From Synergistales bacterium (GTDB lineage: Bacteria; Synergistota; Synergistia; Synergistales; Aminiphilaceae), in assembly GCA_021736445.1 (NCBI GenBank), contig JAIPGA010000011.1, forward strand, positions 1-46,697: a DNA stretch of 46,697 nucleotides, read 5' to 3'. Under the pieces are notes generated by a model. That model ran no database searches and was not told the DNA's origin. It saw nothing but the letters and a program-made list of their open reading frames with translations. This document shows positions 21,519 through 26,060 of the stretch, piece after piece; within the stretch, counting starts at the first letter, position 1, and the number at the start of each line of letters is the position of its first letter. The position numbers and the translations under genes are program-made.

Positions 21519-23039
21519 CTAGATCCGGTCGTCGCCGAACATGTTCTGGAACCGTTCCATCTCCTCATGCTCCGTGTGACTCGGATTGCCGGCCAGGATC
21601 CCCACCACATTCCGGAAGGCCTCGCCGACATGCATCCCCTGGCTGTCAATGAGGAACTCCTTGATGTCCTTGTCGTGCTGGGAGCCGCGCATCTTCAGCG
21701 TGGTGATCCCCCGCCGCATCTCGCCGTAGAGCTCAACGTACCGGAGCAGAATGATCGTGTCGGTCAACGTGGAGATATGCCCCTCCGTCACGGAGGCCCC
21801 GCCGATCAGCGACGGCGATGTGGAGGTAAAGAGCCCGGTGATCTCCTGATGCTTGATAAAGGAGGTCAGGGCGATGACAAACTCGCGGTAGCCCTTTCTG
21901 GTCCCCACCCGCTCCAGTGCGGAGAGGCTGTCCACCGCAACACGGCTGGGCTGGAAGGTGTTCATGATATCCTTCATGATGATCAGGCGCTCCTCGAGAC
22001 CCACCACCTCCGGATATTCACAGACCACCTTGAGCTTCCCTTCCTTTTCCAGCGCCTCAAAATCGTGCCCCCAGCCCCGGGCGTTGCGGAACAGCTGCTC
22101 CCGGCTCTCCTCAAAGGCGAAGAGCACACAGGGCTTCCCCCTGCTTGCCCCGTCGGAGATAAACTCGGTGACCATCAGGGTCTTGCCCGTTCCAGTGGCG
22201 CCCGAGACCAGGATCACCGAATCCTTGAAAAAGCCGCCGCCGCACATCTTGTCCAGTGCGGCGTTGCCGCTGGAGATCCGCTCGTCGGAGGAACGCTGGC
22301 GGAGCTCCATCGCCGAGATGGGCACCACCACAATCCCTTCGCCGCTGATAATGCTGAAGGGGAATTCGCCCTTCTGATGCTCCGTCCCCCGAAATTTGAG
22401 GATCTCCGCCGTTCTTCGGCGTTTCTCGCCCTCCAGATTGTTCCGGAGGATGACCACATTGTCGGCCACAAACTCCTCGATGCCGTAGCGGGTGATCTGG
22501 CCGTACTCGTCGGCCCGCTCGGCGGTGAGAACCGCGGTGACCCCCATATCCTTCAATACCCTGTGGAGACGGAAGAGCTCGTTCCGTATCGTTCTGGGGT
22601 CATCGAATCTCGTGAAGAGCGCCCCCAGGGAATCGATGGAGACACGTTTCGCGCCGGTCCTGGCGATAGCGTTTTCCACCCTCGCCAGGAAACCGCCGAG
22701 ATCGAAGGCTCCACCCAGCTGGATATCCTGGGTCAGCTGCGGCGAGGCATCCACAAAGGCGAAGGTTCCCTGCCGCTCGTATGCCCTGAGATCCCAGCCC
22801 AGGGAGGCGACATTCCGGCTGATATCCTCGGGGGCCTCCTCGAAGGTGACCAGAACGCCGGGCTCGCCGTAATCGGCGATCCCCTTGACCACGAACTGAC
22901 AGGCGAACAGCGTCTTGCAGCTCCCGGCGGTACCGGTAAAGAGCGTCGTGCGCCCCTGCGGCAGCCCTCCCTCCGCGATCAGGTCGAACCCCTGGATCCC
23001 GGTCTTCAGCTTGCCCATTTCCTGCGCCCTTTCAGTCAT
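21519..23039 (-). CDS. kaiC: Circadian-clock-type ATPase/kinase KaiC
   Basis: A 506-residue double-RecA protein. CI: P-loop GTAGSCKT (36-43) and catalytic Glu67-Glu68 in TFEEAPEDISRN. CII: P-loop GATGTGKT (280-287) and Glu310-Glu311 in FAFEESREQLFRNA. The autophosphorylation pair is conserved as Ser423-Thr424 in GHISTLTDT, with Thr418 matching the third cyanobacterial site. A C-terminal tail follows (RGSQHDKDIKEFLI onward). Cyanobacterial KaiC cycles through these phospho-states; other bacteria use KaiC homologues as timers or stress switches. The CI P-loop has Cys where cyanobacteria have Gly. ATG at 23039 is set by AGAGGTGAG and overlaps kaiB by 8 bases. Last gene of a three-gene operon. 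Confidence 0.93.
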   Translation of the reverse strand: MTERAQEMGKLKTGIQGFDLIAEGGLPQGRTTLFTGTAGSCKTLFACQFVVKGIADYGEPGVLVTFEEAPEDISRNVASLGWDLRAYERQGTFAFVDASPQLTQDIQLGGAFDLGGFLARVENAIARTGAKRVSIDSLGALFTRFDDPRTIRNELFRLHRVLKDMGVTAVLTAERADEYGQITRYGIEEFVADNVVILRNNLEGEKRRRTAEILKFRGTEHQKGEFPFSIISGEGIVVVPISAMELRQRSSDERISSGNAALDKMCGGGFFKDSVILVSGATGTGKTLMVTEFISDGASRGKPCVLFAFEESREQLFRNARGWGHDFEALEKEGKLKVVCEYPEVVGLEERLIIMKDIMNTFQPSRVAVDSLSALERVGTRKGYREFVIALTSFIKHQEITGLFTSTSPSLIGGASVTEGHISTLTDTIILLRYVELYGEMRRGITTLKMRGSQHDKDIKEFLIDSQGMHVGEAFRNVVGILAGNPSHTEHEEMERFQNMFGDDRI

Positions 23040-23358
23040 CGTTCTCACCTCTCTTTTCAGAACTGCTCCGCCCCCGACCGACATCGAGGATCTCGAGCAC
23101 CCGGGGGATCTCTCCCAGATCGCCGATCACCCTCCGCTCCGGCTCCGGTCGAACCCGTATCAACGTCGGTGTCGCCAGTATCCGGTCCTGCTCGGCCAGC
23201 CAGGGCTGTTCGAGCACATCGACAATCTCCACGGTACACCGATCCTTGAGATAGACAGAACAGATATGATCCAGATTATCTACGGCTTTGCTGGAACGGG
23301 CCGTCATCCCCGTCACGAAGAGCTTCAGATGGATCTGCCGCTTCCCCTTCTCATCCAT
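23032..23358 (-). CDS. kaiB: Circadian clock protein KaiB
   Basis: A 108-residue protein that matches cyanobacterial KaiB along its length: LKLFVTGMTARSSKAVDNL, then VEIVDVLEQPWLAEQDRILATPTL and RRVIGDLGEIPRVLEILDV. KaiB switches fold to a thioredoxin-like form and docks on the CI ring of KaiC, sequestering KaiA in cyanobacteria. The LAEQDRILATPTL segment covers the fold-switch region. The last 15 or so residues (GRSSSEKRGENDD) are a charged extension. The gene overlaps the KaiA-like gene by 8 bases and kaiC by 8 bases, so all three are translationally coupled. Confidence 0.93.
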   Translation of the reverse strand: MDEKGKRQIHLKLFVTGMTARSSKAVDNLDHICSVYLKDRCTVEIVDVLEQPWLAEQDRILATPTLIRVRPEPERRVIGDLGEIPRVLEILDVGRGRSSSEKRGENDD

Positions 23359-24985
23359 GCTCCTGCCCCCTCCCCTGGGAATCCCGGCCAGGAAGGGATA
23401 CAGAGTGCCTCCGGTAAAAGAGCACCAGGTATCCCATCAGTTCAAGCGCCACAAGCCTGCTCTCCGCCATGTAGGCCATCCGTTTCGCCGGAGAGAGGTC
23501 CTGCTGCTGTACCTCCGCCAGGGCGCTGGTGTGGAGATCGGTAACATCCTTGGGACCCGCCCGGAGACCGCCGAGGCGGAATGCCAGCTCTCTGGTCCGC
23601 TCATCCTGCGGCGTCTCCGCATTCTTCACTCTACCCTTGAAATGATTGTCAAGCAGTTCGCGGTAGGTCGCCACAAGCTCGCGGAACGTCGTGGGGGACC
23701 GCCGCTTCATGGGCTCCTGACCGTAGCTCCGCGCCGTGTTCTGCGTCCCCCCACCGTACATGGAGTCCACGGCACCACGCTCCTGATCCAGCTCCCCGAA
23801 GGTTCCCACCCCTGTCGCCGTCTGGGGCTCCAGCACCGAAACCATTCCGTCAAACTCGCCGCGCTCGTCGTACAGGGGCGCGGCGCTGATCGAGAGCAGG
23901 AGCTGTCTGCCGTCACTCCTGGTGATGCTGTGGTAGATGCCGTAGAGAGGCTCCCCGGCCTTCCGGACCTGGACAAAGGGGAGCGATTCGTCTTCGAAGG
24001 CACCGCCCTCGGGGTCGGCGATCTGCCAGCGGTCGTCGTCATAGGTGCGTCTGGTGATATCCGCCCGGGCCAGTCCGAAGAGCTCCTCAGCCCTGGCGTT
24101 GGCGAAGACAATCCGCCCGTGTCTGTCAACCACCGTCATGGGAACCGGCACCAGCTCCATGACCTTCCCGCGCAGGGTGCGTTCGGACTCCAGATCCTCC
24201 GAGGCGCGGAGCCGCTCGAGCACCCGCCCGAGACGCTCGGTGGCCGCCGCAACGACCCGTCGCTCCCGCTCGCGGAAGCACTCTTCCGCAGCCCCCTCCA
24301 CCTGTGGGGCTGCGCTCCCGTAGCCCACGGAGACACGCCCCTCCCGTTTCCCGTCCACAACCAGCGGCATCCCGATCGACGGCCCCCGGCTCTCGGGTTT
24401 CCCTCTTTTGTAGAAGGTCCCCAGGGGATACTCGATAGAAGCCCAGGCCCGGTCACTGTACTGCAGCACCGAAGGGAGACGGTTCACCGTACCGCGCAGC
24501 AGCCCGGGCACATCGATGCCGGGCTGCTGCACCAGTTCGGCAAATTCGATAAAGAATCGCGTCTGTCGGTCGCGGAAGGCCAGCTCTTCCTTGCAGGACA
24601 CCTCGTCAAAGCCGCTCCGGGAGGGCTGCGCCGAGAGGAGGGCGGCCAGAAAATACGGGATGGCCGGGAGATGGGCTTCCGGAAAGAAATGGAGCGCCCC
24701 TTCACCCTGCATGGGTGGAGAGGCGCCGTCCCGAAAGAGAGCCACCACGGGGCATTTGCTTCCGGCAAGCTGCCTGCGCTCCCCCGGACCCCGCACAAGC
24801 GAGGCGTCAAAGATGATCACATCACCGCGCTCTCCGCAGGGGAACGCTTCGTTTCCGTGGATGTCTTCTATGACGGAAGAAGAGACGCTTGCGTCTTCGG
24901 CGTACCTTCGGATTGCGTCGACGGTTTCGTCAAGCCATCCGCCGTGGGATCCGAAAACGTGGATCCTCTCAATCTTTCCCAGCAT
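23351..24985 (-). CDS. KaiA-like/PAS multidomain sensor, first gene of the kai operon
   Basis: A 544-residue protein. Region 1-115 looks like a receiver or pseudoreceiver (strands IERIHVFG, DVIIFDAS, CPVVALF). A GAF-like region (about 125-265) follows. A PAS domain (about 271-388) includes VPMTVVDRHGRIVFANARAEELFG. A linker leads to a helical C-terminus (about 434-525) with FRELVATYRELLDNHF and AGPKDVTDLHTSALAEV; this lines up with the RsbU N-terminal domain, to which the KaiA C-terminal domain is related. KaiA itself is pseudoreceiver plus that helical domain, so this may be a sensory KaiA analogue acting on KaiC. ATG at 24985 follows GGAGGAGGGG; an upstream GTG frame to 25006 is ignored. 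Confidence 0.75.
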   Translation of the reverse strand: MLGKIERIHVFGSHGGWLDETVDAIRRYAEDASVSSSVIEDIHGNEAFPCGERGDVIIFDASLVRGPGERRQLAGSKCPVVALFRDGASPPMQGEGALHFFPEAHLPAIPYFLAALLSAQPSRSGFDEVSCKEELAFRDRQTRFFIEFAELVQQPGIDVPGLLRGTVNRLPSVLQYSDRAWASIEYPLGTFYKRGKPESRGPSIGMPLVVDGKREGRVSVGYGSAAPQVEGAAEECFRERERRVVAAATERLGRVLERLRASEDLESERTLRGKVMELVPVPMTVVDRHGRIVFANARAEELFGLARADITRRTYDDDRWQIADPEGGAFEDESLPFVQVRKAGEPLYGIYHSITRSDGRQLLLSISAAPLYDERGEFDGMVSVLEPQTATGVGTFGELDQERGAVDSMYGGGTQNTARSYGQEPMKRRSPTTFRELVATYRELLDNHFKGRVKNAETPQDERTRELAFRLGGLRAGPKDVTDLHTSALAEVQQQDLSPAKRMAYMAESRLVALELMGYLVLFYRRHSVSLPGRDSQGRGQEHG

Positions 24986-25049
24986 ACACACCCCTCCTCC
25001 GGCCACACAGAGACCGCGCCGGAGCGGTTGTTCTCCGCGTATTGCAGCG

Positions 25050-25078
25050 ATTGTACCGGCGTGATAGCAAATTGTCTA
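25050..25078 (-). promoter_or_regulatory. sigma70 promoter of the kai operon
   Basis: On the minus strand TAGACA (25078-25073), 17 bases, TACAAT (25055-25050): 5 of 6 matches at each hexamer, 65 bases before the KaiA-like ATG. The operon is thus independent of the upstream pepF-yitT pair. Confidence 0.78.
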
Positions 25079-25104: not shown

Positions 25105-26028
25105 TCACCGCCTCGCTGCCGCGTTCCTGCCGCGCGAGCCGCGCGGAACGCTCCCGAAGGACTTGAACCCTCTGCCCAGAACCTCCGAGGCATCGGAGAC
25201 CACCACAAAGGCCCCGGGATCGCCCTCGGCCAGAAAGTGTTTGAGATCCATGGTCTGCCGTGGGGTCAGAAGGGTCAGCAGCACCGGCCGAGGCTCGTTG
25301 GAGTAGCCCCCTTCTCCGTGGAGTACGGTCACCCCACGTTTGAGGGTATCCATGATGTAGCCCCGCACCGTCTCCATCCGGCTGGAGATGATCATCACCT
25401 GCTTCCGACGGTCGAAGGAACGGAGCACGGCGTCGATGGTGATCCCCGAGATGTAGATCATCATTCCGCCGTAGACGGCGCGCTCTACCCCCACCAGCCA
25501 TACGGCCAGGAGAAGCACCGAGGAGTTGAGGTAGAAGCTCCAGATCCCCACTTCAAGACCGTAGCGCTGTCTGAGGGCCATCACGATGACACTCACCCCT
25601 CCGGGGGAGCCGCCGACCCGGAAGATCAACCCCACACCGAATCCCACCAGACCCCCGGCGAGGACCACCACCAGCAGTTTGTCCTCCATCACCGGGTGGG
25701 GCATACGCTCCAGAAGCTTCAGAAGGACCGCCATCAGGGCCACCGCATAGGCCGAGAGCGCCGCAAAACGGGCGGAGAGCCCCCGCCAGGCCCAGGCAAG
25801 GAGCAGGGCATTGGCACCACCGATCACCCAGGCCGGAGAGATGCCGAAGACATAGTTGGAGAGCACCGCCAGACCGTTCACGCCGGCGGCCGGAAGCTGC
25901 ATGGGCATGAGCAGCGTCAGATAGCCCGCGGCCACCAGAACGACCCCCACCGTGATCGCGGCAAGGTTCTTCCATTCCGCCCTGCACCACACCGGGAGAC
26001 GCCGGCGAATCCGTCGCAGTACCCGCAT
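25105..26028 (-). CDS. YitT-family membrane protein (DUF161 plus DUF2179)
   Basis: A 307-residue integral membrane protein. About five or six helices fill residues 20-195, including GLIFRVGGSPGGVSVIVMAL. A soluble C-terminal DUF2179 domain (about 205-290) has KQVMIISSRMETVRGYIMDTLKRGVTVLHGEGGYS. Function is unknown for most of the family. The last 20 residues are Arg/Gly-rich. ATG at 26028 follows GGTGGAGGAGG; the frame extends to 26052 inside that site. It lies 32 bases after pepF on the same strand. Confidence 0.88.
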   Translation of the reverse strand: MRVLRRIRRRLPVWCRAEWKNLAAITVGVVLVAAGYLTLLMPMQLPAAGVNGLAVLSNYVFGISPAWVIGGANALLLAWAWRGLSARFAALSAYAVALMAVLLKLLERMPHPVMEDKLLVVVLAGGLVGFGVGLIFRVGGSPGGVSVIVMALRQRYGLEVGIWSFYLNSSVLLLAVWLVGVERAVYGGMMIYISGITIDAVLRSFDRRKQVMIISSRMETVRGYIMDTLKRGVTVLHGEGGYSNEPRPVLLTLLTPRQTMDLKHFLAEGDPGAFVVVSDASEVLGRGFKSFGSVPRGSRGRNAAARR

Positions 26029-26060
26029 GAGAAGACCTCCTCCACCGGACAACGGGCGCC

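Follow-up and report, generated by a model that had tools for sequence, protein, structure and literature searches.

KaiA has long been viewed as the cyanobacteria-specific part that makes a clock of the KaiB–KaiC hourglass. The canonical clock has KaiA act on KaiC by way of the C-terminal KaiC tail, a mode of action for which PMC11372060 cites Vakonakis and LiWang 2004. KaiA was reported from a small number of assemblies outside cyanobacteria in a 2021 paper (PMC8113500), and a KaiA3–KaiB3–KaiC3 operon with a receiver-type KaiA3 was published from five genera outside cyanobacteria in 2024 (Köbler et al. 2024, PMC11372060). The KaiA3 proteins described there, Synechocystis Sll0485 and its relatives, carry a NarL-type receiver; Synechocystis KaiA3 increases the phosphorylation of KaiC3, and KaiA3, KaiB3 and KaiC3 together have been reconstituted into a damped oscillator (PMC11372060). 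Because both findings are already in print, we claim no new category for the locus described here. What is new is a PAS-fused KaiA in a Synergistota genome, downstream of a native yitT gene and without the usual kinase after kaiC; in the literature outside subscription journals, we found no paper that describes a KaiA fused to PAS or reports Kai genes from Synergistota. A first-pass annotation of this DNA had singled out the cyanobacterial kaiABC order in a non-photosynthetic bacterium. The operon is genuine, but such an order outside cyanobacteria was already known (PMC11372060).

Open-reading-frame analysis of the window, by which we mean the whole stretch of 46,697 nucleotides analysed, places a KaiA-like gene, kaiB and kaiC in that order on a single strand (Table 1). 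Neighbouring genes share 8 nt at each junction, ATGGATGA and ATGACTGA, and purine-rich ribosome sites precede the starts (GGAGGAGG for the KaiA-like ATG), with ATG 24985 and ATG 23039 as the favoured starts of the KaiA-like protein and KaiC. The first-pass description of three coupled genes on one strand thus holds. Its near-consensus promoter stands in part: the TAGACA-17-TACAAT site lies 65 nt ahead of the first start and matches 10 of 12 consensus positions, but the region has two promoter-like sites where shuffled sequences give 0.7 ± 0.9, so a role as the operon promoter is only suggestive.

Table 1 Features of the kai operon and its upstream flank, in window coordinates; residues of the KaiA-like protein are numbered on the 551-aa form that starts at GTG 25006.
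Feature	Coordinates	Strand	Basis or remark
yitT-family gene, native neighbour (upstream flank)	25105..26052	minus	PF02588; conserved M3 peptidase–yitT order
Sigma-70-type promoter-like site, TAGACA-17-TACAAT	25050..25078	minus	10/12 consensus matches; consensus match only
KaiA-like sensor gene	23351..24985	minus	544 aa from ATG 24985; ORF open to GTG 25006
N-terminal region, residues ~8–283	24158..24985	minus	without confident family
PAS domain, residues 282–392	23831..24163	minus	PF00989, 4.3e-11
KaiA-like C-terminal helical domain, residues ~435–542	23381..23704	minus	profile, PDB and fold searches
kaiB	23032..23358	minus	108 aa; PF07689 match
kaiC	21519..23039	minus	506 aa from ATG 23039; ORF open to 23084
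KaiC C-terminal tail, motif EEMERFQNMF, putative KaiA-binding tail	21519..21579	minus	motif in relatives

KaiB and KaiC can be identified with certainty from their sequences. The KaiB protein exceeds the gathering score of PF07689 (4.5e-26) and matches PDB KaiB sequences at 7e-20, and its fold-switch segment, described earlier as kept, is present by alignment only. KaiC scores 614.6 bits against the TIGR02655 (circ_KaiC) cut-off of 546 and merely ~38 bits with RadA models, which rules out the RadA or generic RecA-like placement that had been raised for it. A PDB search puts KaiC structures first among solved proteins (685 bits for the best), and the 568-residue structures 8dba and 8fwi, which we take to be Rhodobacter KaiC, score 343 bits. 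Both ATPase domains retain their glutamate pairs (residues 82–83 and 325–326) and the Ser-Thr phosphosite is present at 438–439, as the first-pass annotation had read them. The protein also keeps 123 of 124 near-invariant columns, defined by conservation of 97% or more in the KaiC proteins encoded next to KaiA-like genes. The first-ring Walker A motif reads GSCKT instead of GxGKT. GSAKT and GSSKT are common at this site within the same KaiC clade and, because the same glycine is so often Ala or Ser in relatives, we regard GSCKT as a habit of the clade and reject it as a sign of decay. Across loci L016–L050, the last glycine of this motif (KaiC residues 51–58; window 22911–22934, minus strand) is often Ala, Ser or, in the window, Cys, and the second ring stays intact in those KaiC proteins of KaiA-like-bearing loci whose first-ring Walker A is altered. 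A phage origin was considered and rejected, as KaiC found no match in phages.

In the KaiA-like protein, PAS is the sole domain found by a Pfam scan, and no receiver (Response_reg) match was found. The C-terminal ~110 residues match no Pfam model, that of KaiA included, nor is this domain flagged by any Pfam model across the 34 proteins scanned. A canonical KaiA profile does not detect the window sequence alone, and identity to canonical KaiA is ~10%. A profile of 33 relatives, built without the window sequence, gives the domain a score of 117 bits, and this family profile aligns end to end with the canonical KaiA C-terminal domain (hhalign 91.8%, P 7e-7). When the family profile was compared blind with all PDB sequences, the top five matches were all KaiA, the best at E 0.006. 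An AlphaFold model of the domain, with pLDDT above 90 across most helices, gave KaiA C-terminal chains as the top six Foldseek matches at probability 1.00, with E-values of just 0.06–0.2; weak Foldseek E-values are common for small helical folds. Because profile comparison, the blind PDB search and Foldseek all return KaiA, homology to KaiA at the family level is well supported for this predicted domain, in agreement with the earlier guess that the first protein is KaiA-like. The N-terminal 275 residues had no match in Pfam, in the related loci or, by profile comparison, among KaiA pseudo-receivers and KaiA3 receivers, and a lone plasmid match was dismissed as meaningless. Model pLDDT lies below 55 for most of the stretch to residue 240, and a GAF-like identity of residues 135–275 is a lead only.

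Queried with only the KaiA-like protein, minus its PAS domain, species genomes yielded no relatives, so KaiC served as the query and recovered 73 loci. At 33 of these, a KaiA-like domain forms the C-terminus of the protein encoded immediately ahead of kaiB, and the order sensor-KaiA, kaiB, kaiC is conserved in at least 11 named phyla. The proposed search for this order in Synergistota and beyond thus found the operon only here among 188 Synergistota genomes, with the order recurring in other phyla. The sensors on 34 KaiA-like proteins vary, with receivers on 22, PAS domains on ~13, MASE3 on three and Cache-HAMP on one. Two Chloroflexota proteins, both cut by contig ends, share PAS and the KaiA-like domain with the window over ~290 residues at 38–41%. 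In that phylum, 33 of 400 sampled genomes carry a KaiA-like domain; among the 30 best loci, 23 show the A-B-C order, and several of these begin with a PAS-like part instead of a receiver. Chloroflexota also contain receiver–KaiA-like genes that do not adjoin kaiB (L136–L140 and L146); because these copies sit away from kaiB, the domain may have partners outside its own operon. A short contig binned as Tatlockia (Legionellaceae; L070) holds canonical cyanobacterial kaiABC genes that are almost the same as those of Chlorogloea (L077), which looks like bin contamination.

Relatives of the operon also bear on how its KaiC might be read in and out. The tail motif, with a consensus of about [ED]xxR-hydrophobic-xx-[LM]F, is found in 34/34 KaiC proteins whose genome also has a KaiA-like gene versus 2/9 of those whose genome has none (Fisher p 1e-6), but because this pattern reflects few independent changes, we do not treat it as proof. 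One orphan kaiC (L022) has the tail, and a KaiA-like gene sits elsewhere in its genome; in two sister Gemmatimonadaceae (L034 and L042), KaiC keeps a KaiA-type tail and the KaiA-like domain was not found in the genome. On the output side, 17 of 27 genes following kaiC in relatives are histidine kinases, and none stands directly after kaiC in the window. The first-pass annotation saw no SasA nearby, and this extends to the whole genome, which has no second KaiB-domain protein and thus none of the SasA type. Locus L053, from an unclassified bacterium, encodes a 730-residue protein with a KaiB domain after kaiC (L053:7703–9895), an arrangement that resembles SasA, here next to a KaiA-like operon.

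We propose that this apparently horizontally acquired operon of the kaiA3B3C3 type, with its sensor-fused KaiA, probably encodes a signal-gated KaiC phosphorylation timer or switch; the earlier suggestion of an hourglass or a switch is a reasonable guess from the sequence. For sensing, binding, stimulation, sequestration and output, we infer the following scheme. The PAS part, with the N-terminal part, would sense a cytoplasmic signal and alter the KaiA-like helical domain. This domain, probably as a dimer, would hold the KaiC hexamer by its C-terminal tail, stimulating autophosphorylation of Ser438-Thr439 in the second ring. KaiB could then switch fold, bind the first ring of phosphorylated KaiC and withdraw the KaiA-like protein, allowing KaiC to dephosphorylate and closing the loop. 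The outcome would be a slow phosphorylation timer or switch, started by a signal, whose state reflects cell metabolism (ATP/ADP together with the PAS signal) and which need not be free-running. Counting against this model are the missing kinase after kaiC, unlike in most relatives, the GSCKT Walker A motif and the long branches of KaiC and the KaiA-like domain in trees; because of these branches, function may have shifted. Counting against the tail-binding step are the few independent changes of the tail and the two Gemmatimonadaceae that have the tail but in which a KaiA-like gene was not found.

Other readings share parts of this evidence. The exchange of receiver, PAS, MASE3 and Cache-HAMP sensors among relatives suggests an input-output device, and PAS-KaiA might turn the KaiC kinase or ATPase up or down upon stress or redox change, with the KaiC phosphoform acting on partners and no timing involved. 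We find such a switch unlikely, though worth keeping in mind, as a plain switch would have no need of KaiB and the intact two-site phosphorylation pair, both of which are kept. At the other extreme, the full kaiABC set and the damped in vitro oscillation of Synechocystis KaiA3B3C3 (PMC11372060) could be taken to indicate a free-running circadian clock in this Synergistales bacterium; the genome has no SasA-type protein, no light-dependent way of life is known and KaiC is not of the KaiC1 type, all of which make a clock very unlikely. The first-pass annotation had left room for an RsbU_N identity of the first protein, and the sensor could in principle end in an RsbU_N-type partner-switch domain that resembles KaiA and plays no part in KaiC function. 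RsbU_N is described as sharing the KaiA fold in PMC11372060, where Delumeau 2004 is cited for it, and identity to canonical KaiA is low enough to accommodate this idea. Nevertheless, the PDB profile and fold searches return KaiA, with no RsbU among the listed hits, and the domain is strictly co-located with kaiB and kaiC, so that we give this identity very little credence.

It is also conceivable that the operon reached this assembly as an assembly or binning artefact from another organism, such as a Chloroflexota bacterium. The host assembly, a single genome, is a draft in 112 contigs with contamination of 3.35% and, in a comparison set of 188 genomes from the phylum (one order, at least ten families), kai genes of comparable strength occur in no other: the PAS-fused KaiA-like domain is found in 1/188, KaiB and KaiC of this kind only here, and one further KaiC-like protein matches at 32%. 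An artefact is nonetheless barely credible. On the same contig and strand, yitT lies ~120 nt upstream of the KaiA-like gene, and the M3 peptidase–yitT order is kept in three genomes of the same family that have no kai genes. Proteins on both flanks, among them the M3 peptidase and one resembling RNase H, find matches within the phylum at 41–56%, and GC and GC3 of the kai genes fit the contig. By sequence, the genes flanking the operon are native to the phylum. ARAGORN also reports a 96-nt tRNA-His inside the yitT-family ORF (25145–25240, minus strand), which is probably spurious. The operon itself is best read as horizontally acquired from a source resembling Chloroflexota. In a quick tree, KaiC groups with those of Chloroflexota loci L015 and L017 (SH-aLRT 91), whose operons carry a PAS–KaiA fusion as well, and falls outside the KaiC1 clade (support 100) in a KaiC3-type clade, so that the phylogeny proposed earlier returns a genuine KaiC but not the canonical cyanobacterial kind. 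That all three genes were transferred together from Chloroflexota is no more than suggested, by the KaiC tree and the shared PAS architecture, since the tree of the KaiA-like domain gave no resolved placement.

More broadly, and tentatively, KaiA may be a widespread output domain, fused to varied sensors (receiver, PAS, MASE3 or Cache) that gate a KaiB–KaiC timer, rather than a cyanobacterial invention; the operon described here could then be a transferred, light-independent and chemically gated PAS-KaiA timer whose output is not an adjacent kinase. With its KaiA fused to a sensor, such a timer may be set by a signal instead of by light. Since this domain is found on interchangeable sensors, ahead of kaiB and kaiC, across many phyla that do not photosynthesize, purified proteins offer a direct test of where Kai timing came from and what feeds into it.

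Compared with known systems, the locus stands at different distances. The N-terminal domain of Bacillus RsbU, from partner switching, has a helical fold related to KaiA according to the literature, but it was not matched by sequence or fold search, and the window protein has no phosphatase domain. The Rhodobacter KaiB–KaiC hourglass (KaiC2/KaiB2; PMC10076222) is likewise non-cyanobacterial and likely a timer rather than a clock, but lacks KaiA. With Synechococcus elongatus KaiABC, the locus has in common three proteins in the same order, the KaiA C-terminal fold, the KaiB family and a two-ring KaiC with its glutamate and Ser-Thr pairs; it differs in a KaiC outside the KaiC1 clade with another tail, in having no match to the KaiA pseudo-receiver and in the absence of SasA. 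The closest parallel is KaiA3–KaiB3–KaiC3, where the gene order is the same and a KaiA-like C-terminal domain again follows a foreign sensory N-terminus. Both occur outside cyanobacteria, the published set including Chloroflexota and Chloroherpeton, and the window KaiC belongs to the clade of KaiA-like-bearing loci. In contrast to the published operons, no kinase follows kaiC in the window, its phylum is not reported in PMC11372060, and an N-terminal region without assigned family and a PAS domain stand in place of the NarL-type receiver. With PAS in place of the receiver, we therefore regard the locus as a variant of the KaiA3–KaiB3–KaiC3-type operon rather than as KaiA3 in the narrow sense.
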